Assembly: GCF_002973595.1 (NCBI RefSeq)
Contig: NZ_PVEO01000001.1
Location: 1-64,000 of the forward strand
Origin: Jejuia pallidilutea
GTDB taxonomy: Bacteria > Bacteroidota > Bacteroidia > Flavobacteriales > Flavobacteriaceae
Direction: 5' to 3'
DNA: 64,000 bases
Shown: positions 32,472-48,680 of the stretch, one piece after another
Numbering within the stretch: position 1 is the first letter of the stretch
Layout of the letters: each line of letters opens with the position of its first letter
Notes under the pieces: model-generated
The model's input: the letters and a program-made list of their open reading frames with translations, nothing else
Database searches by the model: none
What the model was told of the DNA's origin: nothing
Position numbers and translations under genes: made by a program

Positions 32472-33467
32472 TTATTCAGGAAAACCGTTTAAGCTTAAAG
32501 TTTCTAATTCGTTATTATCATTTTCAAAAATAAAAAATACTTTTAGCTCGGGGTGTTGCGTTAAAAACGCACTAACTTTTTCTATTCCCATGGCCTGAAA
32601 AGCGGTTGCGTAACCATCGGCAACCATACAATCGTTAGCAATTACAGAAACACTTAAAATATTAGTTTTGGTAGGGTAGCCTGTTTTTGTGTTTATGATA
32701 TGCGCATATTTGTTACCTTTTTCATCAACTTTAAACTTTCGGTAAGTACCAGAGGTTGCCATAGCTTCATCTTTTAAACTAATGGCTTTGTAAACCGATT
32801 GTCCACCATCAAACCTAGGCTCGTCCAGACCTACACGCCATGGTGCATTTTTCTCCATATTTTTTCCACTCACTCGTAACTCTCCTCCTATTTCAACTAA
32901 ATAATTTTCTACGTTTTTACTTTCTAAAAACTTGCCAATAACATCAACACCATAACCTTTTGCTATGGCATTAAACTCTAGATACGTATTTGCTGGTTTA
33001 ATAATTTTGTCTCCTTTTAATTCTACCTTATTAAACCCCACAAACTGCATTAAACTATCAATGGTGGCACTGTTGGTTAAAAATTTATTGGTTTCTGCTC
33101 CAAAACTCCATGCGTTAACAACATCGCCAATTGTGGGATCAAAAACACCATTAGTTGCATTGTATATGTTTTTTGAAGTACGAAAAACATTTTTAAAATG
33201 CGCATCTACCTTTACAGGCTCATTTCTATTCAATTTAGAAATGTCAGAATTTGGAATATAAGTTGATAATGAGGCGTTTATAACGCTGAACAAACTATCA
33301 AATTGTGTTGTATAATTTATCTTAGAATCGTAAATAACGCTGTAGGAAGTACCAAAAACAGCTCCAGAAAGTTTTGTGTTTTCAGGTGCTTCAACAGGCG
33401 ACTTAAGTTTTTGTTTACACGAAAAAACAACAATTAAAAGTACTATAACTATTGAAAGTTTTTTCAT
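32472..33467 (-). CDS. apbE: FAD:protein FMN transferase
   Basis: A 331-residue lipoprotein (hydrophobic segment ending VVFSC, Cys17) that attaches FMN through a phosphodiester bond to Thr in the D-x-x-(S/A)-G-A-T motif of target proteins. Family signatures: FGTSYSVIY near the N-terminus, VDPTIGDV-like FDPTIG, AKGYGVD, NYLVEIGGELRVSG and the C-terminal Asp/Thr metal site ADGYATAFQAMG. NqrB and NqrC, encoded at 45299-47325, are the natural targets. Its ATG directly follows the stop of the small upstream gene, indicating translational coupling. Confidence 0.95.
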   Translation of the reverse strand: MKKLSIVIVLLIVVFSCKQKLKSPVEAPENTKLSGAVFGTSYSVIYDSKINYTTQFDSLFSVINASLSTYIPNSDISKLNRNEPVKVDAHFKNVFRTSKNIYNATNGVFDPTIGDVVNAWSFGAETNKFLTNSATIDSLMQFVGFNKVELKGDKIIKPANTYLEFNAIAKGYGVDVIGKFLESKNVENYLVEIGGELRVSGKNMEKNAPWRVGLDEPRFDGGQSVYKAISLKDEAMATSGTYRKFKVDEKGNKYAHIINTKTGYPTKTNILSVSVIANDCMVADGYATAFQAMGIEKVSAFLTQHPELKVFFIFENDNNELETLSLNGFPE

Positions 33468-33845
33468 TTAATTTAAGTTTGGTTCTATGTACTGAATACC
33501 GTTATATTCTATTAGATAGTCTTCGTTAAGATAAATTGGCAAGTCTTCTCCGTTAGGATTACCCAATCCAACCCCTGCATAAAGCACCTTGGCATCTTTT
33601 TCAAAAGCATGTTTTTTAAAAGACTCCATCCAAACAATATCGTAATTATTTGGGTTTTCTGGTAATATAACTGCACGAACAACTACAAAAAAGTACTGGT
33701 TGTTTTTGTCTATACATACAAATTGCGGATGCCGTTTTAATTTACTGTTAATAGCTACAAATTCAAAACCACGCTGTTCTAAATCTTTACCTACATGGTT
33801 CATAGCTAGGTTATGCAATTCCTGTTTTGAAAGTGGCTTACTCAT
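33468..33845 (-). CDS. small conserved protein coupled to apbE
   Basis: A 125-residue cytoplasmic protein with no signal peptide or Cys cluster. Relatives in flavobacteria are often labelled 'Na(+)-translocating NADH-quinone reductase subunit F', although it has no Fe-S or FAD motifs; the name reflects its usual place beside nqr/apbE genes. The sequence has a DxxxxGFEFVAINSKLKRHPQFVCI block and a VGLGNPNGEDLPIYLNEDY block. Its stop and the ATG of apbE are contiguous. A role in Nqr maturation is only an inference from location. Confidence 0.75.
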   Translation of the reverse strand: MSKPLSKQELHNLAMNHVGKDLEQRGFEFVAINSKLKRHPQFVCIDKNNQYFFVVVRAVILPENPNNYDIVWMESFKKHAFEKDAKVLYAGVGLGNPNGEDLPIYLNEDYLIEYNGIQYIEPNLN

Positions 33846-36386: not shown

Positions 36387-36445
36387 AAAAACTTAAACCG
36401 CATAATTTCTAAACAACCTAATTATTAACCATTTGTAGTTTAGTA

Positions 36446-36476
36446 TTTGAAGAAAAACGAAATAATTGTATATTTC
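36446..36476 (+). promoter_or_regulatory. possible promoter of the sigma/CHAT operon
   Basis: TTTG (36446-36449), a 19-base spacer and TATATTTC (36469-36476), which differs from TAnnTTTG only at the last base, lie 17 bases before the ATG of the sigma-factor gene. Confidence 0.45.
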
Positions 36477-36492
36477 CTATAGCTATTAATTC

Positions 36493-37062
36493 ATGGGGAA
36501 AACAATACACTTATTAAGTCAGTCGCAACTGGTTGAAGCTATAAAGTCTAACAACACTAAAGTTTTAAAACAACTTTATACCTCAAATTATCCTAAAGTT
36601 GAAGCTTTAGTTTTAAAAAACAGTGGGTCTGTTGCACATGCAAAAGATATATATCAAGAAGCATTTATAACCGTTTGGACACATGTAAAACAAAATAAGT
36701 TTACACCCCAAAATGATAGCGCCTTACAAGGTTATTTATACAGTATTTCTAAAAATAAATGGACGGACGTATTAAGGTCTAAATCGTTTAAAGATGTAAA
36801 ACCGCTAAATAACGATACACTAGGAGGAATGAAAGAAGATGAAGCATATAGTGAACCAGAGGATAAAAAATTAAAATTAACCATGGAAGCCTTTAAAAAA
36901 TTAGGGCAACCCTGTAAGCAATTATTAAAAACCTTTTATTTCGAAAAAAAATCTTTGAAAGAAATTTCAAAAGCGTTAAACATAGAAGAAAATACAGCAC
37001 GAAACAAAAAATACAGATGTATGCAAAAACTAAGAGCTGTAGTATTAGCCTCAAAACCTTAG
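36493..37062 (+). CDS. ECF-type sigma-70 family sigma factor
   Basis: A 189-residue sigma factor with region 2 at residues about 20-88 (SVAHAKDIYQEAFITVW, then a QGYLYSISKNKWTDVLR segment) and region 4 at about 130-185 with the helix-turn-helix KSLKEISKALNIEENTARNKKYR. There is no region 1 or 3. It is read in the same direction as the membrane TPR gene (TTG start three bases after its stop) and the CHAT gene. The arrangement suggests that the membrane protein holds this sigma factor and that the operon may autoregulate, which is inferred. Confidence 0.93.
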   Translation: MGKTIHLLSQSQLVEAIKSNNTKVLKQLYTSNYPKVEALVLKNSGSVAHAKDIYQEAFITVWTHVKQNKFTPQNDSALQGYLYSISKNKWTDVLRSKSFKDVKPLNNDTLGGMKEDEAYSEPEDKKLKLTMEAFKKLGQPCKQLLKTFYFEKKSLKEISKALNIEENTARNKKYRCMQKLRAVVLASKP

Positions 37063-37065
37063 AAA

Positions 37066-37806
37066 TTGAAAGATAGCAACAACATATCAGAAGAGTTATT
37101 AGAAACCATTGAACGTTATCTCAACGGCACTTTAAACACTCAAGAACTAAAAGATTTTAATAGACTTTTAGACATTGACGACGATTTTAAAGCCCAAGTA
37201 GAAGATGTGCGCACCATGCTTTTTGGTATAGAAACGCAATCTTTAAAAGAACAGCTAAACGAATTCCACAAAGATGTTCCAAAACAGATAAAAACAGAGC
37301 CTTCGCCAAAACAAAAGGTGCGTTATTTAAGGTATAGTAGAATTGCTGCGGCGGCGGCCATAATTATAGCTGTAGGTAGTATTTGGTTTTTTAGTACACC
37401 AAAAAACGAAAAACTATATGCTAATTATTTTAAACCAGACCCCGGACTGCCAACCACCATGGGCAATACAGCTAATTTTATTTTTTATGATGCCATGGTA
37501 AACTACAAATATGGCGATTATGATATTGCCATTTCGAAATGGGAAACACTAGCCGAACAAAAACCTGAGAACGATACCTTAAATTATTTTTTAGGTGTTG
37601 CGCATTTAGCTATAAGAAAAGAAGCAGAGGCAATACCGTTTTTAGAACGCACCATACAAACAAAAAAAGATTTTGCGTTAATAGACGATGCATATTATTA
37701 CTTGGGTTTAGCCTATTTAAAAGAAGGTAATTTAGAGCTTGCGAAAAAAAATTTAAACATTAGCAATAAAGACTTGGGTAAAGAGCTACTCTCTAAATTA
37801 AAATAA
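37066..37806 (+). CDS. membrane protein with TPR domain, candidate anti-sigma factor
   Basis: A 246-residue protein with an N-terminal cytoplasmic part (residues 1-88, starting with LLETIERYLNGTLNTQELKDF, the opening typical of Bacteroidota anti-sigma-like proteins), one membrane helix (IAAAAAIIIAVGSIWFF, residues about 92-108) and a periplasmic TPR part (residues about 130-240, e.g. YGDYDIAISKWETLAEQKPEN). The only nearby start is TTG 37066, three bases after the sigma gene stop, so translation is probably coupled. The topology, cytoplasmic sigma-binding part plus periplasmic sensor, is inferred from the order of segments. Confidence 0.8.
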   Translation: MKDSNNISEELLETIERYLNGTLNTQELKDFNRLLDIDDDFKAQVEDVRTMLFGIETQSLKEQLNEFHKDVPKQIKTEPSPKQKVRYLRYSRIAAAAAIIIAVGSIWFFSTPKNEKLYANYFKPDPGLPTTMGNTANFIFYDAMVNYKYGDYDIAISKWETLAEQKPENDTLNYFLGVAHLAIRKEAEAIPFLERTIQTKKDFALIDDAYYYLGLAYLKEGNLELAKKNLNISNKDLGKELLSKLK

Positions 37807-37821
37807 TAAATACTACAACAC

Positions 37822-40800
37822 ATGCCTAACGTGCCAAAAAATTATAGGTTAATTATAATCGCTCTTATATTTTGTGTGAACAATTTACTGGCACAAAGCA
37901 ATATTCATCCCAATATTAAAACAATTAATACACTAATTAAACAAGATGCCCTTCAAGAAGCTAACGCACTTATAAAATCTGACATAGAAAAATTAAAAGA
38001 AACTAAAAAATGTAGCGTACTAGTGCACTATATTTTCCCTCTAGGCAAAATTCATATTCTAAACAATGCTTTTAACGAAGCTGCGCAAAAAGGCAAGCTA
38101 TTAGTAGATTTTATTGAGAGCAACACTTTGGATGCAGAAACGCTATACCTAGCAAACATAGAATATTCAAAACTATGTTTAGATATTGGCGAACTACCCA
38201 AAGCGTACAAGCATGCTAATAAAGCAAAAGCCTATGCACAACAAACTAAAAATACATTATACCTAATAGAGAGTGCTTATTATTTGGCCGATTATGCTAT
38301 GAAATTGGGACAAATAGATGTTCTAGAAAAACATGTAAGAAGTGCAGATAGTATATTACGTAAAAATCCTAATTCAGAATTCAAAATAACAGCTAGAGTT
38401 TATAATTTATTTGGGGCACTTATGTACTTTACATCAAAACAAGACAGTGCATTTTATTACTTTAACAAAGCATTAAAACACATACCTAAGCTAGAGCAGA
38501 ATGAAGAAAATAGTTTGTATTTACCCGCTGCAATAAAGGGCAATATGTCTGTTATAAAATTAAATCAAGGCCAACCTTCAGAAGCTAAACCCCTTATTCA
38601 ATCTTCAATCCAATTGTCTAAAGCATTTCTTGATAAAACTCAACATCACCCCTTAGAAAACCGAGTAAAAAGAAACCTTACCATTGCATACAACAACCTT
38701 AATGGGCTTTACTTCGATTTAGGTGATTTTGAAAAATCAGACTTTATTACCAAACTAGCTCTTGATTATACAAAAAGTAACTTTCCAGAAAATTCTCAAG
38801 AATATTTTATGGCTGCTTTAACTCATGCCGAAGTAAAAACCCAAAAAAGAGAATTTAAAACAGCTTTAAAGTATTTAGATATTGCCAACAAAACTTTAGC
38901 GAAAATACCTGGTGATAATTTTCAGCTTAAAGCATTTTTATACAATGAGTATGCTAATGTTTATTACATGATGGAAGCTTTTAAAGAAGCACTAGAATTT
39001 AGGGAGTTAAGCAACCTTAATTATAAAAAATCCAACCCAAACGCTTTCGATCCAAATAAGCTTTATAACACTATGAATTTGGCTATCGCCTACTCTGAAA
39101 TAGGCGAAAAAGATAAAGCCATTAAAACAGCTAAAAGCACTTACAATTACTTTTATAAAGCTAAAGGCGAAAACGATTATTTTACAAATGCGCTAATGCT
39201 AACACTCGCCAAAGTATATTATAATTTAGGGATGTATAATGAGAGTGAAATATGGAGCGAAAAAAGTATAAAGCTTTATAACGAAAAGGCTTCAAAAGAA
39301 ACTGTAGATAGGCTGTATTTTGAAGAAGATAAGGCAGAAATTTATATTTTAAATGCTCAATCTAAATACCAAAGAGCACAAAAAAAGGATAGCTTGTTTT
39401 TAAAACAACTTTTACCTCTAATAAACAATGCCATTAAAGCACTTGAGGAGAAAAAAATTACAATTACTGCTTTTAATGATATAAATGCCCTAATAGAAAA
39501 CAACACTAAGGTTTTTAATTTTGCTAAAAAAATAAATCTAGAATTATACCATATCACTAACAATACTAGCTATTTAGAAAAAACTATTAGCTTGCATGAA
39601 TCTGCCTTGTACAATAGAATAAGGGCTAGGTTAAATACAAATCCTAATATCTCATTCTCTGGTATTCCCAGTCATATTTCAAAAAGAGAAAAAGAAATAA
39701 AGCAAACATTAACCACAAAAAAAGAAAATCTTGATGCACTTGTAACAAACACCAATATATGGCATACATTTTTAGACACCTTAAAAACGCATTACCCAAA
39801 ATATTATAAAATGCGCTATGCAACCATAGAAAAGCCTTTCGCTGATATTTATAAGCACTTACCTAAAAATACTACGGTAATACGGTATTTGTTTATTGAA
39901 AACAACCTGTACGGTTTTGTACTTTCTTCTGATAGAAAAAAAACCATTACTAAATTAAAAACCAATAATCTAGATGCTTACATAACACAAGTATCAAATA
40001 ACGACAATAATGTTAAGGCTACAAGTAAAAGTCTTTTTGCTTTATACCAACAGTTATGGAAACCTTTAGAAAATAACATAACTACTGAAAAAATTATAAT
40101 AATTCCAGACCGTGGCTTATTTAATCTTAGCATTGAAAGTATTACGCCTAAACCGATAACTACATTTGATGAATTATCTACAAACAGCCTATTATCAAAA
40201 CACATTATTTCTTACAATTACAGTTTATTGCTTCTTGCAAAAGACCAAAAAACAATAGGCTACAATAAAGATTTTGTAGCTTTTGCCCCAGAGTTTAATG
40301 CAGACATGAAACAGCATTACAGCATTACTATAACCGATTCCCTTTCTATTGATAAAACCTATTTAAACCTATTACCACAGCCGTTTAGTGTAGATTTGGT
40401 TAAAGAATATTCAAGAGTTTTTAATGGTGATCATTTTATTAATGAAAATGCATCAAAAACAATATTTAAAAACGAAGCTAACGAACATAAAATAATACAT
40501 ATAGGCACCCACGCCGAATCTAACAATATAACTCCAGAATTATCCCGTTTAATTTTTGCTAAAACCAATGAGAATGAAGACAATTCGTTATACACTTACG
40601 AGATTTATAACGAGAGTTTAAATTCTAACTTAGCTATTTTAACAGCTTGCGAAACAGGAAAACCCACTTACCAGTCTGGAGAAGGCATGATTTCTCTTGC
40701 CCATGCGTTTAATTATGCCGGTAGCGAAAGTATTTTAACAAGCCTCTGGGAAATTGATGAAAAATCGAGTTCAGAAATCATTAAATTCTTTTATCAAAAC

Positions 40801-41028
40801 ATAAAAAAAGGATTACCAAAAGACAAAGCACTACAACAAGCAAAGCTAAGTTATATTAATAAAGCCAACGGTAGAACTCTCCACCCTCAATATTGGGCTG
40901 GATTAGTTCTTATTGGAGATACCACTCCTATACACTTAAAATCTTCAATGGACATGGCATGGTTCTTTATAATTGGCATGCTAATTATTATTGCAGCTTA
41001 TTTTATTTTAAAAAAACGAAACACATAA
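37822..41028 (+). CDS. CHAT-domain protease with TPR repeats, membrane anchored
   Basis: A 1068-residue protein with a signal peptide (residues 1-24, NNLLAQS), tetratricopeptide-type helical repeats (about 50-560), a linker and a C-terminal CHAT domain (about 690-1035). The caspase-like dyad is intact: His897 in HIGTHAE and Cys943 in LTACETG, 46 residues apart. A single membrane helix (about 1045-1061) and a KKRNT tail end the protein, which places the protease domain in the periplasm. It is the last gene of an operon with an ECF sigma factor and an anti-sigma-like TPR protein, 15 bases downstream of the latter. The substrate is unknown. TPR-CHAT proteases elsewhere cleave defence or stress effectors. 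Confidence 0.93.
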   Translation: MPNVPKNYRLIIIALIFCVNNLLAQSNIHPNIKTINTLIKQDALQEANALIKSDIEKLKETKKCSVLVHYIFPLGKIHILNNAFNEAAQKGKLLVDFIESNTLDAETLYLANIEYSKLCLDIGELPKAYKHANKAKAYAQQTKNTLYLIESAYYLADYAMKLGQIDVLEKHVRSADSILRKNPNSEFKITARVYNLFGALMYFTSKQDSAFYYFNKALKHIPKLEQNEENSLYLPAAIKGNMSVIKLNQGQPSEAKPLIQSSIQLSKAFLDKTQHHPLENRVKRNLTIAYNNLNGLYFDLGDFEKSDFITKLALDYTKSNFPENSQEYFMAALTHAEVKTQKREFKTALKYLDIANKTLAKIPGDNFQLKAFLYNEYANVYYMMEAFKEALEFRELSNLNYKKSNPNAFDPNKLYNTMNLAIAYSEIGEKDKAIKTAKSTYNYFYKAKGENDYFTNALMLTLAKVYYNLGMYNESEIWSEKSIKLYNEKASKETVDRLYFEEDKAEIYILNAQSKYQRAQKKDSLFLKQLLPLINNAIKALEEKKITITAFNDINALIENNTKVFNFAKKINLELYHITNNTSYLEKTISLHESALYNRIRARLNTNPNISFSGIPSHISKREKEIKQTLTTKKENLDALVTNTNIWHTFLDTLKTHYPKYYKMRYATIEKPFADIYKHLPKNTTVIRYLFIENNLYGFVLSSDRKKTITKLKTNNLDAYITQVSNNDNNVKATSKSLFALYQQLWKPLENNITTEKIIIIPDRGLFNLSIESITPKPITTFDELSTNSLLSKHIISYNYSLLLLAKDQKTIGYNKDFVAFAPEFNADMKQHYSITITDSLSIDKTYLNLLPQPFSVDLVKEYSRVFNGDHFINENASKTIFKNEANEHKIIHIGTHAESNNITPELSRLIFAKTNENEDNSLYTYEIYNESLNSNLAILTACETGKPTYQSGEGMISLAHAFNYAGSESILTSLWEIDEKSSSEIIKFFYQNIKKGLPKDKALQQAKLSYINKANGRTLHPQYWAGLVLIGDTTPIHLKSSMDMAWFFIIGMLIIIAAYFILKKRNT

Positions 41029-41032
41029 AACA

Positions 41033-41902
41033 CTACTTAAAGCTAACAAATTTAGAGTTGTAAAAGGTATAGTTTGATACTGGAATAACAGCATCTTTTT
41101 CTAAATGATACCATGGCGATTGTGTAGTATCTTCTAAATTTTTTACTAAATGCACACTTTGTGCTGGTGTGTTTCCTTGAAAGAGCAAATATATTTTATC
41201 GCCACTTGCATTTATGGCTTCGTCACAAATCATTACAATATGTCCCGGAGCCCCACCTTTTATTAACATATCGCCAATTTTTAAATCTTTTGAATTATTA
41301 ATTTTTGGAAGTTCGTTGTAAAGAGATAAAGTACCAGAATACATGTAAATTATATTCAAGTATTTATAAAAGTTGTCTTTTGAATGGTTTTTATAAGCTG
41401 TTTTGTGAAACGAAACACTATTGTCTTTAATTTTTGGTCTGTATCCTTCAGCATATTTTTCCCAAGAAAAATAGTGACCACTTGTAAAATTGAAACCTAT
41501 TTCGCCCTTCCTATTATTGTCCCATAAATACTCACTTCGTATTCTAATTAAGGCATCGGCGCATTGTTGTAATCCGTTTTTAGGCACAGGAATATCTAAA
41601 ACACCAATATGTCCCCGTTGCCAAAAATATTCGGTATCATCATAATTTATGATTTTTGTTCCAAATGGTTTTAGCTTATAATTTCTAAGATACGCTTGAA
41701 AGGAACCAGCAGTATAAGGTACACGTTTGTAACCTTTAGGAGCATTTACCCTGTTTTTAATGGTAAGACCATCTTTATTAATATAACTAGCGGTATACGC
41801 TGTGGGAATTAATGTAGATTTAGCGTACTCAATAGGTTTAAATTGATAAAATAATATAGCTGTAATAAAAGCTATACCTACAAAAACTAAAAGTTTTTTC
41901 AT
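41033..41902 (-). CDS. DUF4846-family protein
   Basis: A 289-residue protein with an N-terminal membrane anchor or signal (residues 3-19). Conserved features are KGYKRVPYTAGSFQAYLRNYKLKPFG, the block QQCADALIRIRSEYLW, and FNFTSGHYFSWEKYAEG. The later GDMLIKGGAPGHIVMICD contains Gly-His and Asp positions as in papain-like amidase folds, though I do not claim activity. It is the first minus-strand gene after the CHAT operon, meeting it end to end with a four-base gap. Function unknown. Confidence 0.8.
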   Translation of the reverse strand: MKKLLVFVGIAFITAILFYQFKPIEYAKSTLIPTAYTASYINKDGLTIKNRVNAPKGYKRVPYTAGSFQAYLRNYKLKPFGTKIINYDDTEYFWQRGHIGVLDIPVPKNGLQQCADALIRIRSEYLWDNNRKGEIGFNFTSGHYFSWEKYAEGYRPKIKDNSVSFHKTAYKNHSKDNFYKYLNIIYMYSGTLSLYNELPKINNSKDLKIGDMLIKGGAPGHIVMICDEAINASGDKIYLLFQGNTPAQSVHLVKNLEDTTQSPWYHLEKDAVIPVSNYTFYNSKFVSFK

Positions 41903-42011: not shown

Positions 42012-42461
42012 ATGAAAACTTCAAAACGTTTAGAATTGGCTATTAGTAAGCTATACACAGCATTTCACAATAATACACTAAACCCAGAATGCTGCCAACA
42101 ATGTGCAGTTGGGAATATTCTAGATAATACTGATAGCTGGAAGCATTTATCAGACGCACACGGCTCACTAAAACTAAATTATATTGGAAAAGTACACCAA
42201 AGCTTAGGGCGACAATTTAATGGCTATTCGCCTTTAGAACTTTTAAAAATCGAGCATATTTTTTTAACCGCATGTGGTTTTCAGTTGCCATTACACTATA
42301 ATAACAGCAAACCAGAGCACCCCACCAACAAAGATGTTTTATTTAACGGGCTTTCTGCTGTAATTGCTTATTTGTGTGAATTAGATGGGGTTGAAAATGT
42401 TATGGACTATACTAAGTTATTTAAGGGTAATACTAAGAAAACGATACAAACCTTGGTATAA
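42012..42461 (+). CDS. cysteine-rich small conserved protein near nqr genes
   Basis: A 149-residue protein with no signal peptide. Its Cys motif near residue 27, ECCQQCAVGN, and the block KHLSDAHGSLKLNYIGKVHQSLGR are conserved. Such proteins are sometimes annotated in flavobacteria as 'Na(+)-translocating NADH-quinone reductase subunit F', with no sequence basis for that name. The Cys cluster could bind a metal or a cluster. It converges on the nqr operon through a bidirectional terminator. Confidence 0.65.
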   Translation: MKTSKRLELAISKLYTAFHNNTLNPECCQQCAVGNILDNTDSWKHLSDAHGSLKLNYIGKVHQSLGRQFNGYSPLELLKIEHIFLTACGFQLPLHYNNSKPEHPTNKDVLFNGLSAVIAYLCELDGVENVMDYTKLFKGNTKKTIQTLV

Positions 42462-42481
42462 TTCTTTATAAAATACTTTAT

Positions 42482-42517
42482 AAAAAAAACCAACTCCTAA
42501 TTGAGTTGGTTTTTTTA
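42482..42517. terminator. bidirectional terminator before nqrF
   Basis: ACCAACTC (42489-42496), a 6-base loop and GAGTTGGT (42503-42510) are flanked by seven A on the left and six or more T on the right. It ends both the 42012 gene and the nqr operon, which stops at 42543. Confidence 0.9.
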
Positions 42518-42542
42518 TGTTTTATTAAATGACGATTATGGA

Positions 42543-43862
42543 TTAACCTCCAAAGTCATCAAAACGTATATGTTCATCAGGGATACCAAAATCCTCTCCC
42601 ATTTTTTGAACCGCTTTGTTCATTAATGGAGGCCCACAGAAGTATAGTTCAATATCTTCAGGAGCTTCATGGTGATTCAAATAATTATCAATCACACAGT
42701 TATGAATAAACCCAACAAAACCATCACCTTCTTCGTCATTAATATCTTTTTTAACCTTCCAATTATCTTCTTCTAAAGGCTCAGAGAGTGCCATGTAGAA
42801 TTTAAAATTAGGAAAGTCCTTTTCTAAAGATTTAAAGTGATCTATATAGAATAGTTCTCTTTTAGAACGACCACCGTACCAATAGGTTACTTTTCTTCCA
42901 GTTTTTACTGTTTTAAACAAGTGGTATAAATGCGAGCGCATTGGTGCCATACCTGCACCGCCACCAACGTATAACATTTCACTTTCAGACTCATTGATGA
43001 AGAATTCACCATAAGGCCCAGAAATAGTAACTTTGTCTCCTGGCTTTTGCGCGAATATGTAAGATGATGCCACTCCTGGATTTACATCCATCCAACCATT
43101 TTTAGAACGATCCCATGGTGGAGTTGCAATACGAACATTTAACATAATTTCCCGTCCTTCAGCTGGGTAAGAAGCCATAGAATAAGCTCTCTCAACTGTT
43201 TCTGTATTTTTCATTACTAATGGCCAAAGACCAAACTTATCCCACTCTGCTTGAAACTTGTCTGGTGTTTCGTGTTCTTCGGGATGCGCTGTAATATCAA
43301 TATCAGAATATTTAATTTCGCATGGAGGAATTTCAATTTGAATATATCCACCAGCTTTGTACCCCATATCCTCAGGAATTTCAACTACAAACTCTTTAAT
43401 AAATGATGCTACGTTATAGTTACGCACAACGGTAGCTTCCCATTTTTTAATACCAAACACCTCTTCTGGAATGGTAATGTTCATGTCTTGCTTTACTTTA
43501 ACTTGGCAAGCTAAACGTGCACCTTCTTGTAGCTCTTTTCTAGAAAAATGTGGTGTTTCTGTAGGCAATGCCTCTCCACCACCTTCTAATACATGGCACT
43601 CGCATTGAATACATGTACCGCCACCACCACAAGCCGATGGCAAAAATATTTTATTTGATCCAAGCGTAGATAATAAAGTACCACCTGATGCTACCTCGAT
43701 TTCTTTCTCACCATTAATCGTAATTTTTACAGGACCTGATGGTGATAATTTTTGTTTTACTACCAATAGTAAAGCGACTAACAACAATGTAATAACTAAA
43801 AAAGCTGAAACTGTTGCTACTATTGTTCCTACTGTACCGGCTGCTAATATCATATTACTCAT
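42543..43862 (-). CDS. nqrF: Na+-translocating NADH:quinone reductase subunit F
   Basis: The NADH-oxidising entry subunit, 439 residues. It has an N-terminal membrane helix (residues 8-33), a 2Fe-2S ferredoxin domain with the Cys pattern [14 protein letters not shown] (residues about 77-90) and a distal Cys in RLACQ, then an FAD domain with RAYSMASYP and an NADH domain with [13 protein letters not shown]. The start overlaps the nqrE stop by 8 bases (ATGAGTAA), so translation is coupled. Complete and normal. Confidence 0.97.
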
Positions 43863-44574
43863 TTAATTTTATGTTGTTAGCTACTTTATCTTTATTAGAA
43901 TCCTCAACAGACTCTTGTACTTTTGCAGTTTTCTCTTCTTTTGGAGCCTCTTCGTCTCCTCCAGTTAGCATACCTCCAAAACTCATAAAACCTATGGCCA
44001 TTAAGCCTGTAATAATAAACGTAATACCTAATCCTCTTAAGGCTGGTGGTACATTTGAATATCTAATTTTTTCGCGAATTGCAGCTATGGCTAAAATGGC
44101 TAAAAACCATCCAATACCCGAAGCTACACCGTAATTAAATGCCAAACCAAACGTTTGTATCTCACGCGATTGCATAAATAAAGATCCTCCTAAAATTGCA
44201 CAGTTTACAGCAATTAGTGGCAAGAAAATACCAAGTGAGTTATACAAAGATGGTGAAAACTTTTCAACCACTATTTCTACCAATTGTACCATTGTTGCAA
44301 TAGTTGCAATAAACATGATAAATGATAAGAAACTTAAATCGTAATCTGCATACTCTGCACCTAGCCACGATAATGCTCCTGGTTGTAATAAATATTGGTC
44401 TAACAACCAGTTTAAAGGCACTGTAATAGCCAATACAAAAATTACCGCAGCTCCTAAACCAACCGCTGTACTTACTTTTTTAGATACCGCAAGGTAAGAG
44501 CACATTCCTAAGAACGTTGCAAATACCATGTTATCTATAAATATCGATTTAAAAAATAATTCTACGTGTTCCAT
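43855..44574 (-). CDS. nqrE: Na+-translocating NADH:quinone reductase subunit E
   Basis: An integral membrane subunit (239 residues) with about six hydrophobic helices that, with NqrD, encloses an iron centre between the two subunits; the Cys in [13 protein letters not shown] and in [12 protein letters not shown] are the conserved positions. The C-terminal tail after residue 210 is polar and longer than in Vibrio. It overlaps nqrF by eight bases and is preceded by 72 bases of spacer after nqrD. Confidence 0.96.
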
Positions 44575-44646
44575 TTTTTTAAGTTTTCAGCCTCAGTCAC
44601 AATTCACAGCTAAGTACTGCTAGTTGTTACATAAACTGTATACTGA

Positions 44647-45297
44647 TTAGTCTTCTATTAATGCTTTATTTTTAGTACGTTGTACCCAAATAATAATACC
44701 CACAACAATTAGTGCCATTGGCGATAGTAACATAAAACCATTGTTCTCGTAACCTATAGCATACAATCCTGTTTTTTCAATTGGATCTCCTAAAACTTTA
44801 AATCCTAGTAATGTGCCAGAACCTAATAATTCTCTAAAGAAACCAACAATAATTAGGATGGCTCCATAACCTGCTGCATTACCTATACCGTCTAGAAAAG
44901 AACGCCAAGGACCGTTTCCTAAAGCAAAGGCCTCGAAACGTCCCATGATAATACAGTTTGTAATAATTAATCCGACGAATACTGAAAGTGTTTTACTCAA
45001 CTCGTAAGCAAATGCCTTTAAAACTTGATCTACAATAATTACCAGAGCAGCTACTACCACTAACTGAACAATAATTCTTATTTTAGAAGGAATAATATTT
45101 CTCATTAAGGAAATAACTACGTTTCCTACACCTAAAACAAACAGTACAGATATAGACATAACTATTGATGCCTTTAATTCTGCAGTAATTGCCAAAGCTG
45201 AACAAATACCTAATACTTGGATAGTAATTGGGTTATTATCCGCTAAAGGGTCTGTGATTAACTTTGTGTCTTTTTTTGATAAAAGTCCCATAATCAA
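44647..45297 (-). CDS. nqrD: Na+-translocating NADH:quinone reductase subunit D
   Basis: A 216-residue membrane subunit paired with NqrE. It has six predicted helices and the conserved Cys in QVLGICSALAIT and ITNCIIMGRFEAFA that bind the intramembrane iron centre with NqrE. Its start and the nqrC stop are almost contiguous (one base apart), so the two are translated together. No irregularity is visible. Confidence 0.96.
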   Translation of the reverse strand: MIMGLLSKKDTKLITDPLADNNPITIQVLGICSALAITAELKASIVMSISVLFVLGVGNVVISLMRNIIPSKIRIIVQLVVVAALVIIVDQVLKAFAYELSKTLSVFVGLIITNCIIMGRFEAFALGNGPWRSFLDGIGNAAGYGAILIIVGFFRELLGSGTLLGFKVLGDPIEKTGLYAIGYENNGFMLLSPMALIVVGIIIWVQRTKNKALIED

Positions 45298-45298
45298 T

Positions 45299-46099
45299 TT
45301 AATTTTTTTGAGATTTTAAACTATCGAAATAAGGTTTATACAACTTTAAATCGCTCTTTATCATAGCTGTAACGCCATCTCCTGTGATGGTTGCTCCAGC
45401 AATGGCATCAACCTCGTTATCAGTTTTATCTTCGTTTTTAGGATCTGCATTTCCTTTGGCAACTGTAATACCTTTAAAAGCACCAGACTCTCCAAGTAAA
45501 TGTTCGCCAATAAAATCATCCATAAAATAACGTTGCTTTATATTGGCTCCTAGCCCAGGGGTTTCTCCTTTGTGATCAAAATAAGCACCTTGCACTACCA
45601 TATTTTCATCTACGGCTACATAGCCCCAAATAGCATCCCATAAACCTTTTCCATAAATTGGTGCTACATAAACTTTTTTACCTTCTTTATTATTGCCTAT
45701 AAATAAAGGTAATTTACGTACGCCTCCACTTTTTGCATTACTCTTTTGTTTTTTAATATTTATCAAGTAAGGCTCTTTTCCATTATTGGCATCCATAAAC
45801 TCTTTACGTGTCATTTGGCTTATAATTTCACCATCTTTGGACTCTAAAACCAATTGTTCAGAAACCTTTTCGGTAAATAGTTCTGGAGCTTGTGTTGTAG
45901 CCACAAAATTTGCACTACTCTCATCATTCTCGTTTATTCCCATTGCATAAAGAATATTTTGCTGTTTCTCTATACGCTCGTTCTCTGTAATTGTAGGCTT
46001 TAATGATGAGGCGGTAAATGCCAATAAAGCACCAACAACCACAACCATGCCGATAGCGAACAATATTGTGTATGAATTTTTGTCTGTATCCATTGCCAT
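45299..46099 (-). CDS. nqrC: Na+-translocating NADH:quinone reductase subunit C
   Basis: A 266-residue subunit with one N-terminal membrane helix (residues 11-30) and a periplasmic FMN domain. FMN is bound covalently to Thr in DAIAGATIT (near residue 238), which fits the ApbE target pattern D-x-x-(S/A)-G-A-T. The gene lies two bases after nqrB and one base before nqrD. The FMN attachment depends on apbE at 32472-33467. Confidence 0.96.
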   Translation of the reverse strand: MAMDTDKNSYTILFAIGMVVVVGALLAFTASSLKPTITENERIEKQQNILYAMGINENDESSANFVATTQAPELFTEKVSEQLVLESKDGEIISQMTRKEFMDANNGKEPYLINIKKQKSNAKSGGVRKLPLFIGNNKEGKKVYVAPIYGKGLWDAIWGYVAVDENMVVQGAYFDHKGETPGLGANIKQRYFMDDFIGEHLLGESGAFKGITVAKGNADPKNEDKTDNEVDAIAGATITGDGVTAMIKSDLKLYKPYFDSLKSQKN

Positions 46100-46101
46100 A
46101 A

Positions 46102-47325
46102 CTAAGCTGTTTTAACTTTTAGACGTTTCATTCGTTTTTTCACATTACCTTGTACTACGTAATGATCTATAGTTGGTGCAAATACATTCATTAAAAGAAT
46201 TGCTAAAAATACACCCTCTGGGTATGCTGGATTAAATACACGAATCATAATAGAAATAAATCCTATTAAGAAACCATATATCCATTTTCCTTTATTGGTT
46301 TGCGAAGCTGTTACAGGATCTGTAGCCATATACACTGCTCCAAATAAAATACTACCAATAATTAAATGTTGCCAGAAGGGAACACTCATTAACCCATAGA
46401 ATTTACTTGATTCCCCTATCCATCCAGCATCAACAACGCCGTTAAATATTAAGCCCATAACCAAAGCACCTATTAATGTTGAGATGATAATTCTCCAACT
46501 TCCAACTTTTGAAAATATTAGAAATAGTGCTCCAATGATGATTAAAAATTTTGAAGTTTCTCCAACTGATCCTGGAATTAACCCCCAAAACATATCCCAA
46601 TAATCGTAAACCACTGAGTTGTTTTGTGCATAAGAACCTAAAATAGTTTCACCAGAAATAGCGTCTAGATTAGCGCCTTCAGCAATCATTTGGTCTCTTT
46701 CTACAGCACCATGTACCCAAACTTTATCTCCAGACATCCAAGTAGGATAGGCGAAGAATAAAAATGCTCTTATGGTTAATGCTGGGTTTAGAATATTCAT
46801 TCCTGTACCCCCAAATACTTCTTTGCCTATTACAACACCAAATACTACTGCAACTGCCAACATCCACAATGGAATATCTACAGGTACAATAAGTGGCACC
46901 AACATTCCTGTTACCAAATATCCTTCTTCTACTTCGTGTCCTTTTATAATGGCGAATATAAACTCTACAGCTAAACCTACACCGTAGGATACCACTACTA
47001 GAGGTAATACTTGCCATATGCCTACCATTAAATTGTCTATTGTCCAAAACGAAGCACCTAAAAACCCTTTAGCCGATTCAATTTCACCTAGGGCTAAATA
47101 ATGTTGGTACCCTGCATTGAACATCCCGAAAATTAAACATGGCACTAAAGCCAAAATCACGGTATTCATGGTACGCTTTAAGTCATCTGCTGCCTTTATA
47201 TGAGTACCTCCATGCGTGGTCTCGTTTGGCATAAATAAAAATGTATGCAATGCTGAAAACGCAGGCAACCATTTTTTATCTTTGTTTTTAACTTTAAAAC
47301 TGTGTAATTTTTCTTTTAAACCCAT
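46102..47325 (-). CDS. nqrB: Na+-translocating NADH:quinone reductase subunit B
   Basis: A 407-residue membrane subunit with ten or so hydrophobic helices forming the sodium path. The covalent FMN attachment site reads DAISGETILG (near residue 206-215) instead of the common SGAT, keeping the Thr and Gly and changing Ala to Glu. Its ATG and the nqrA stop share bases (TAATG-type overlap at 47325). The overall length and order are normal. Confidence 0.96.
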   Translation of the reverse strand: MGLKEKLHSFKVKNKDKKWLPAFSALHTFLFMPNETTHGGTHIKAADDLKRTMNTVILALVPCLIFGMFNAGYQHYLALGEIESAKGFLGASFWTIDNLMVGIWQVLPLVVVSYGVGLAVEFIFAIIKGHEVEEGYLVTGMLVPLIVPVDIPLWMLAVAVVFGVVIGKEVFGGTGMNILNPALTIRAFLFFAYPTWMSGDKVWVHGAVERDQMIAEGANLDAISGETILGSYAQNNSVVYDYWDMFWGLIPGSVGETSKFLIIIGALFLIFSKVGSWRIIISTLIGALVMGLIFNGVVDAGWIGESSKFYGLMSVPFWQHLIIGSILFGAVYMATDPVTASQTNKGKWIYGFLIGFISIMIRVFNPAYPEGVFLAILLMNVFAPTIDHYVVQGNVKKRMKRLKVKTA

Positions 47326-48680
47326 TATCCTATCTCTTTAAGCATTAAGTCTAAACCTTCTCTTATTATTTTTTGATGTGGTTGTTTAGAAACACATACA
47401 AATTCTGTTAATGCAAAATCTTCTGGGGCAACTTCGTACATACCTAAGGCTTCCATTTCATCTAAATCTTGGTACATACAAGCCTTTAAGATCTGCATTG
47501 GATATATATCTAAAGGAAATACTTCCTCGTAAGTTCCTGTTGTTACAAAAGCACGGTGCTCACCATTTGTGTTGGTATTTAAATCGTACTCTTTTTTAGG
47601 GTTTAACCAAGAAAACGTTAAGGCTCTAGATGTAGAAATTTTGTTAAAAACAGGCTTTGTCCAACCAAAAAGCTCATAATCATCACCCTCTGGAATTATA
47701 GTAATAACATTACTGTAATAATCTAAATATCCATCTGGCTTAATTTCTTTCCCGTTTAGTACGTTACCAGAAATAATTCTAGCATTGGCGTCTTTTTCAA
47801 CACCGTTGTCATAAATCATTGTTGCAACTTCGCTTCCTAATTTGGTAACGAAATAACGCGGAGACTTAACCTCAGATCCCGTTAAAGCAACAATACGTTC
47901 AGCATTAAACTTACCTGTTAACAACAACTCACCTATAATAACTAAGTCTTGTGCAGCAACCGTCCAAACGGTTTCACCTTTGTTTACAGGGTCTATTTTG
48001 TTAATTAGTGTACCAACGTTTCCTGATGGATGCGGACCAGACACTTTATGTAGTGTTATTCCAGACAAACCTGCTAAAGGTGAGCTGGCATTTTTGCCAA
48101 CACCTACATGAACCTGCCCTTCGGTTAGTTTACCAAGCGCAGATACTGCTGCTTGTAATTCAGCCTCTTTTCCTTGTAAGGTATAATCTAAGTCGGCCGC
48201 CAATGGTGCGCTGGCATAACCAGAGATAAAAATAGCTTTTGGCATTTTATCTGGTTTAGCAATAACATCGTAAGGTCTTTGCTTTATAAATGGCCATAAA
48301 CCGCTTGCTAATAAATGTGCTTTTAACGCTTCTGGCGTTGCGGCATCAACATCAAACTTACCATGTTCTTGATATGTTTGCGCTTTATCAGCTTGAATTT
48401 TAATTTCTAAAATTTTACGTTTAGCACCTCGAGAAATCTCGATGACTTCGCCAGAAACTGGAGAAACAAACTTTACGTCCTCGTTCGATTTATCGTAAAA
48501 CACAGGTTCTCCCGCTTTTACTTTGGTACCAACCTTAGAAATTAATTTAGGAATTACGCCATGGAAATCTTCTGGTCTTAAAACAAAAAAGTTACTCAAA
48601 ACCGCTGTATCAGTGGTTTTTTTTGCTTCACCTTTAAGCTTAATATCTAGACCTTTCTTAATGCGAATGTCGTTTGACAT
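47325..48680 (-). CDS. nqrA: Na+-translocating NADH:quinone reductase subunit A
   Basis: The 451-residue soluble subunit and first gene of the operon. Recognisable blocks include FHGVIPKLISKVGTKVKAGEPVFYD near the N-terminus, SGPHPSGNVGT and the C-terminal FVCVSKQPHQKIIREGLDLM. It is transcribed from a promoter at 48721-48753, 41 bases before its ATG. The stop overlaps the nqrB start by one base. Confidence 0.97.
   Translation of the reverse strand: MSNDIRIKKGLDIKLKGEAKKTTDTAVLSNFFVLRPEDFHGVIPKLISKVGTKVKAGEPVFYDKSNEDVKFVSPVSGEVIEISRGAKRKILEIKIQADKAQTYQEHGKFDVDAATPEALKAHLLASGLWPFIKQRPYDVIAKPDKMPKAIFISGYASAPLAADLDYTLQGKEAELQAAVSALGKLTEGQVHVGVGKNASSPLAGLSGITLHKVSGPHPSGNVGTLINKIDPVNKGETVWTVAAQDLVIIGELLLTGKFNAERIVALTGSEVKSPRYFVTKLGSEVATMIYDNGVEKDANARIISGNVLNGKEIKPDGYLDYYSNVITIIPEGDDYELFGWTKPVFNKISTSRALTFSWLNPKKEYDLNTNTNGEHRAFVTTGTYEEVFPLDIYPMQILKACMYQDLDEMEALGMYEVAPEDFALTEFVCVSKQPHQKIIREGLDLMLKEIG

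Follow-up and report, generated by a model that had tools for sequence, protein, structure and literature searches.

Linked genes for an ECF sigma factor, a membrane TPR protein and a secreted CHAT protein in Jejuia pallidilutea: a recurrent cassette with a candidate site-1 protease

Overview

The window analysed here is the 64,000-nucleotide stretch at positions 1 to 64,000 of contig NZ_PVEO01000001.1 from Jejuia pallidilutea, and between 36493 and 41028 it carries three plus-strand open reading frames (ORFs) separated by gaps of 3 and 15 bases. They encode an extracytoplasmic function (ECF) sigma factor, a membrane protein with tetratricopeptide repeats (TPR) that we call ANTI because it is probably the anti-sigma factor, and a TPR protein with a CHAT peptidase domain, referred to below as CHAT. 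The triplet is real and recurrent, and we place it as a new version of the protease-controlled anti-sigma circuits. Judging from how ANTI sequences change with the presence of CHAT, we consider it probable that CHAT acts as the site-1 protease, cutting ANTI near Met132 and thereby starting the release of the sigma factor.

Anatomy of the three proteins

The anatomy described in the first-pass annotation, with an ECF sigma factor, a TPR protein crossing the membrane by one helix, and a secreted protein that joins a TPR array to a CHAT domain with an intact His897/Cys943 dyad, was borne out by the ORFs, domain matches and alignment. The first protein passes the ECF model TIGR02937 (sigma70-ECF) at 80.2 bits against a cut-off of 42.9, and it matches Sigma70_r2 and Sigma70_r4, giving it the region 2 plus region 4 only composition of ECF factors. 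The third protein matches PF12770 (CHAT, 133 bits) and TPR_12, and by eye its start resembles a signal peptide that ends in AQ, while at its C-terminus a hydrophobic helix precedes KKRNT. All 20 aligned CHAT proteins, distant ones included, share His893, His897 and Cys943. It is a member of the CHAT peptidase family with an intact His-Cys dyad, and protease activity is predicted from its sequence. No second CHAT gene was found in the genome.

A Foldseek search with the CHAT model ranked human separase first, DdvA (8rot) eighth and Csx29 (8gu6) thirteenth. When a sequence profile of the CHAT part was compared with the PDB, the best match was 8rot (E 6e-8), and further CHAT chains, which we take to be CRISPR-associated TPR-CHAT proteins, appeared at E ~0.001. 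A profile that included the TPR part was discarded, as only TPR proteins were among its best 60 PDB rows. A role in defence or cell death found no support, the best PADLOC match of the five proteins searched having an E of 0.0097.

ANTI matches TPR_16 (36.8 bits), and no Csx30-type match to it was found in Pfam, NCBIfam or PADLOC at E<=1. In its AlphaFold2 model, three helices at the N-terminus precede a single helix of membrane length (~90-109), after which a short juxtamembrane stretch leads into a TPR domain; the N-terminal helices are placed beside the sigma factor with a block predicted local distance difference test score (pLDDT) mostly >90. With a gene adjoining that of the sigma factor, a presumably cytoplasmic N-terminus and one membrane helix whose orientation we infer, ANTI probably has the layout of a membrane anti-sigma factor. 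A Foldseek search with the sigma-ANTI model returned TPR and sigma chains, including AlgU and sigmaE from anti-sigma complexes; we rejected this as showing an inhibited arrangement because E was no better than 0.0015 and the root-mean-square deviation for the sigma factor was large.

Recurrence within the family

The whole CHAT protein was searched against 149 genomes of the family, of which 66 matched, and the search split full-length orthologs, with sigma and ANTI genes upstream on the same strand, from more distant CHAT proteins. Among nine of the more distant genes that were fetched, seven adjoin a sigma-ANTI pair on the opposite strand, tail to tail. We then surveyed 395 family genomes that were >=90% complete, with ortholog thresholds of E 1e-35 for ANTI and 1e-135 for CHAT, or better. 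ANTI orthologs were present in 61 and CHAT orthologs in 54, and every genome with the CHAT ortholog also had ANTI (54/54). All 54 loci were read, and in 51 of them sigma, ANTI and CHAT genes are adjacent on one strand, so the triplet is not a chance arrangement. The three others (G027, G525 and G644, all of one genus) have CHAT apart from the sigma-ANTI pair and still keep the ANTI motif described below. In the window's own genus an ANTI ortholog was found in 9/12 genomes, with a CHAT start directly downstream in seven and without one in G132 and G701.

The 12 named GTDB-contig loci with the best full-length CHAT matches (L032-L043) gave a similar picture, with the three genes adjacent in ten. 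At L040 the sigma-ANTI pair lies 2 kb downstream of CHAT, and at L035 neither sigma nor ANTI was found in the 17 kb region around CHAT. Four loci (L325, L050, L074 and L087) have two or three CHAT genes in tandem per single sigma-ANTI pair. L067 has five consecutive CHAT genes on one contig of a metagenome-assembled genome (MAG), with no sigma gene found in the stretch examined. One of the 51 adjacent cassettes, L003 in G044, has a CHAT ortholog (62% identity) with in-frame stops and two apparent frameshifts ~70 codons apart beside intact sigma and ANTI genes, which would reflect either recent pseudogenization or an error in assembly.

Dependence of the ANTI motif on CHAT

Seven of the 61 genomes with ANTI lack the CHAT ortholog (G121, G132, G598, G036, G685, G049 and G456). 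Searching them with PF12770 showed no CHAT in G132 and G456, a short remnant in G598, and only CHAT proteins of another class in G121, G036, G685 and G049. ANTI occupies the same chromosomal place in all seven, between the ApbE-side genes and NqrF, which points to CHAT loss rather than a different gene.

We aligned 71 ANTI rows (73 minus 2 duplicates), 64 distinct ones from loci with CHAT and the seven without, leaving out L003 because its CHAT is broken. In proteins accompanied by CHAT the residues next to the membrane on its outer side read DPGLPTxM[G/S], with Gly127 and Met132 invariant and residue 133 either Gly or Ser in 64/64 rows. The motif is altered in all seven genomes without CHAT, where residues 125-133 read ASGLPTSMN (G121), APGLQNKTN (G132), DIGINTNIK (G036), FPALSMPID (G685), ATELPEINI (G049), VSELQVV (G456) and DPGLPTTIG (G598). 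In the last of these, which still holds the CHAT remnant, Met132Ile is the sole core change. Across the seven motif columns 27/49 cells are changed without CHAT and 8/448 with it, while TPR columns that are >=90% conserved are changed in 11/140 cells of the same seven proteins (motif vs TPR, Fisher p 3e-11, ignoring shared ancestry). A tree built without the motif columns gave at least three independent CHAT losses, with the motif altered in each. When the motif is scored by a strict 7-of-7 criterion, almost every sampled pair differs in it; by a looser 6-of-7 criterion, about two thirds do.

Six of the seven have an absent, broken or diverged sigma factor. No close sigma remains in G132, G685, G049 and G456, the G598 gene is split in two, and the G036 protein has diverged to 37% identity; G121 keeps one at 56%. 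Two further genomes show other states of the locus. G701 (L332), from the window's genus, has a diverged sigma (130 bits) and an ANTI whose motif is lost (KAYPALTVLQ); no CHAT was found within the 1.5 kb downstream of ANTI that was searched, making it a possible further loss. In G442 (L317, 8341-8985) a CHAT remnant of 79% identity remains at the ApbE-side site while sigma and ANTI are gone, a different order of decay.

Proposed mechanism and alternatives

We propose that the three genes form one switch from envelope to gene. The N-terminal cytoplasmic part of ANTI would hold the sigma factor off, while CHAT would be exported and tethered by its C-terminal helix to the outer face of the inner membrane, where its TPR array would sense some signal. 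Activated CHAT would cut ANTI between Met132 and Gly133, in an exposed loop just outside the membrane, and the TPR part would be shed. A site-2 protease resembling RseP would then cut the stump in the membrane, and degradation of the stump would free the sigma factor; a Peptidase_M50 (site-2 protease) gene is present in the genome. If CHAT is the activator, its loss would lock the sigma factor off and make it useless, which fits the sigma decay in six of the seven genomes.

The first-pass annotation had left CHAT as either the output of the circuit or its trigger, for instance through cleavage of the membrane TPR protein. If CHAT were only an output, with the sigma factor driving it and the linkage reflecting co-regulation, the ANTI motif should not depend on CHAT; the change upon CHAT loss is left unexplained, and the observed dependence favours the trigger. 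The single operon in most genomes does agree with co-regulation, as does the genus with split genes, where a TTGTATCTTTC element is found upstream of both the sigma and the CHAT genes, but this element resembles a common promoter type and is not diagnostic. We regard the output-only explanation as very unlikely.

A securin-like arrangement, in which the ANTI motif is a pseudosubstrate plugging the CHAT active site, the real substrate is another envelope protein and the sigma factor reports the state of the pair, would also make the motif depend on CHAT. Separase, which gave the best fold match, is held inactive by securin (PMC9729208). However, a flexible loop in which an unvarying Met precedes Gly or Ser resembles a substrate site, and a plug would not need one. 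Sigma decay after most CHAT losses likewise fits an activator better, and we consider the pseudosubstrate unlikely.

It is also conceivable that the whole circuit relaxes once CHAT is gone, with the motif drifting first simply as a loop and having no direct contact with CHAT. The sigma decay in the same six genomes is what such relaxation would produce, and cytoplasmic ANTI columns that are >=90% conserved do change in 7/35 cells without CHAT compared with 13/320 with it. On the other hand, where CHAT is present the motif matches the TPR core in conservation, and is thus constrained, yet without CHAT it changes far more often than that core in the counts given above; orphan ANTI, moreover, is still under purifying selection. 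General decay seems to us distinctly improbable.

Several observations weigh against CHAT as the site-1 protease of an anti-sigma factor. ANTI scores far under the cut-off of every anti-sigma model it matched (NF052375, 22.9 bits against a cut-off of 100). Met132 is retained in one of the seven genomes without a CHAT ortholog, G121, and the changes extend beyond the motif: His68 and Lys148, both invariant where CHAT is present, are each changed in 3/7, and Ala96 is changed in 5/7. With three independent losses, a paired test cannot reach significance. An intact ANTI persists in G685, G049, G456 and G132 (L314, L315, L316 and L318) alongside neither a close sigma nor this CHAT, and pairwise dN/dS (the ratio of nonsynonymous to synonymous substitution rates) is 0.11-0.25 in comparisons involving genomes without CHAT, indicating purifying selection; between genomes with CHAT it is 0.03-0.16 (nine pairs in all, with dS near or above 1 in every one). 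Finally, alanine scanning of Csx30, the substrate of a TPR-CHAT protease, found no essential residue at the cut (PMC10028731), leaving a strict Met requirement without direct precedent there.

Candidate cut site and specificity

Both AlphaFold2 models show PDPGLP as well ordered (block pLDDT 95 and 88), but in the ANTI-CHAT model residues 131-133 score under 50. Met132 thus appears to lie in a flexible loop linking the anchor to the first TPR helix. Cuts by known TPR-CHAT proteases give some comparison: Csx30 is cut between residues 427 and 429 and deletion of M427 blocks cutting (PMC10028731), and in another system the cut falls after L407 (PMC9729208).

Outside the window's clade, the matching ANTI column holds Arg in 37/52 rows, followed by Gly or Ser in 27 of those 37, and by eye Arg or Lys lies a few columns away in several of the remaining rows. 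This is the only polar column beyond the membrane helix conserved in at least half of the rows. At the position of CHAT Glu980, Glu is found in 63/63 Met-type pairs and Asp in 56/56 others; this tally covers the 119 readable of 125 CHAT-ANTI pairs, the remaining six being dropped for an unreadable segment. We set aside a firm assignment of Glu980 to the S1 pocket, as the split between Met/Glu and other/Asp may reflect a single ancestral change. In the published comparison, K670 of a TPR-CHAT is the counterpart of the residue with which separase reads P1 Arg (PMC9729208), and in our reading of the alignment the equivalent in the window's CHAT is Ser984 rather than Glu980.

CHAT genes across Bacteroidota

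PF12770 matches were found in 148/296 Bacteroidota genomes. We took every second listed match, giving 60 regions of up to 17 kb (L153 only 3.9 kb; one was swapped because it overlapped another), and compared them with 40 control regions, taken from long contigs in this set at a distance of 100 or 250 kb; three of these controls themselves hold a CHAT-like ORF. Since the match list was ordered by score, strong CHAT matches are over-represented in the sample. A sigma gene scoring >30 bits was present in 21/60 CHAT regions and 2/40 controls, and sigma together with an ANTI-like gene in 18/60 and 0/40. Ten linked regions share one arrangement, with the sigma-ANTI pair ~2.6-4 kb downstream, and all come from one family (f23), so the sample is not independent. 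Three additional CHAT regions (L143, L144 and L152) have weaker-scoring sigma and ANTI genes directly upstream. An adjoining fourth gene of 526-546 aa, with similar protein starts, was also seen in these three distant triplets.

Most sampled Bacteroidota CHAT genes are without a visible sigma link, whereas those of the window's clade are linked. The pattern that the first-pass annotation named as a refutation, a CHAT gene usually lacking a sigma link, therefore does not apply to this clade (51/54 linked). Over all loci examined there are 125 distinct CHAT-ANTI pairs within 6 kb, some ANTI genes being paired with more than one CHAT, in four gene orders: 77 upstream co-directional, 22 convergent, 13 downstream co-directional and 13 divergent.

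Gene features and flanking genes

Coordinates are collected in Table 1. The full element upstream of the sigma gene occurs once in the genome and resembles a common Bacteroidota -33/-7 promoter; being of this common type, it decides nothing as to whether the sigma factor drives CHAT, and we dropped it as proof of this. The cassette is flanked in the window (32472-33845 and 42012-48680) by ApbE and a 125-aa gene on one side and by a 149-aa gene and nqr genes on the other, and the ApbE/nqr island likewise frames ANTI in all seven genomes without CHAT. A DUF4846 gene (41033-41902, minus strand) lies tail to tail with CHAT and is broken in G132. We rejected it as a fourth part, as its place next to CHAT is confined to this genus and near genera, and the family is present in only 12/40 relatives.

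Table 1. Features of the sigma-ANTI-CHAT cassette, in window coordinates
Feature	Position	Strand	Evidence
Conserved block upstream of sigma, GTATTTG ... TTGTATATTTC	36443..36476	+	Alignment of 9 relatives including the window
ECF sigma factor, 189 aa	36493..37062	+	TIGR02937 80.2 bits, Sigma70_r2 41.6 bits
ANTI, membrane TPR protein, probable anti-sigma, 246 aa, TTG start	37066..37806	+	TPR_16, helix 90-109, co-occurrence with CHAT ortholog
ANTI residues 1-88, cytoplasmic part, presumed sigma-binding	37066..37329	+	Three helices beside sigma in AlphaFold2 model
ANTI membrane helix, residues ~90-109	37333..37392	+	Helix 281-300 of fused AlphaFold2 model
ANTI juxtamembrane motif DPGLPTTMG, residues 125-133	37438..37464	+	Conservation where CHAT is present, alteration in genomes without CHAT
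Proposed cut after Met132	codon 37459-37461	+	Met132 invariant 64/64 where CHAT is present, residues 131-133 pLDDT below 50
Secreted TPR-CHAT protein, 1068 aa, proposed site-1 protease	37822..41028	+	PF12770 133 bits, TPR_12, Foldseek to separase, DdvA, Csx29
CHAT catalytic His897	40510..40512	+	Invariant 20/20
CHAT catalytic Cys943	40648..40650	+	Invariant 20/20
CHAT Glu980, possible specificity residue	40759..40761	+	Glu in Met-type pairs, Asp in other pairs

Relation to known systems and significance

Csx29 is a TPR-CHAT protease that cuts Csx30, an inhibitor of an ECF-type sigma factor, in a flexible loop (PMC10028731, PMC9729208). The Csx29/Csx30/CASP-sigma set of type III-E CRISPR (Craspase) resembles the triplet, in which a TPR-CHAT protease would likewise act against the inhibitor of an ECF sigma factor. 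The differences are that the CRISPR parts are cytoplasmic and RNA-guided by Cas7-11, whereas here CHAT has a putative signal peptide and ANTI is a membrane TPR protein, and that sequence similarity between the CRISPR-associated CHAT chains and the window's CHAT is weak (profile E ~0.001). The window has no gene of Cas7-11 size, its ORFs being no longer than 1068 aa, which sets the cassette apart from type III-E CASP systems.

The chain 8rot is DdvA, deposited as a CHAT domain-containing protein, and DdvA is the transmembrane anti-sigma factor of the ECF sigma factor DdvS in Myxococcus xanthus (PMC4374960). Anti-sigma and CHAT are in one chain there and in two separate genes here, so the cassette is not of the DdvA type, but an anti-sigma factor fused to CHAT supports the functional link proposed between ANTI and CHAT. 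The proposed logic is also shared with DegS/RseA/RseP, where a periplasmic site-1 cut of a one-helix anti-sigma factor is followed by a site-2 protease (also described in PMC10028731). DegS is a PDZ serine protease, while the proposed site-1 protease here is a caspase-like CHAT and the outer part of ANTI is TPR.

Our literature search, with most subscription papers outside its reach, found no prior report of a Bacteroidota sigma-ANTI-CHAT triplet. The closest was a remark on ECF54, whose genomic context is noted to include CHAT, subtilase and carboxypeptidase genes and for which proteolytic control without an anti-sigma factor is proposed (PMC8999054). According to that review ECF54 has no anti-sigma factor, whereas we propose one here.

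More tentatively, it is possible, if somewhat short of probable, that a Bacteroidota-wide family of caspase-like site-1 proteases is dedicated to anti-sigma factors and cuts close to the membrane on its outer side, at a Met- or Arg-Gly/Ser bond. The Csx29/Csx30/CASP-sigma set would then be a cytoplasmic, RNA-guided offshoot and DdvA a fused form, and the cleavage residue and CHAT residue 980 (Glu/Asp) would have changed together between Arg and Met specificity.

If the proposed circuit is true, CHAT proteases would gain a signalling role outside CRISPR and cell death, with a named substrate and a likely scissile bond, both open to direct testing. It would also hint at the origin of the Csx29/Csx30/sigma circuit of type III-E CRISPR, and it would offer a way in which a class of Bacteroidota ECF sigma factors could be activated.

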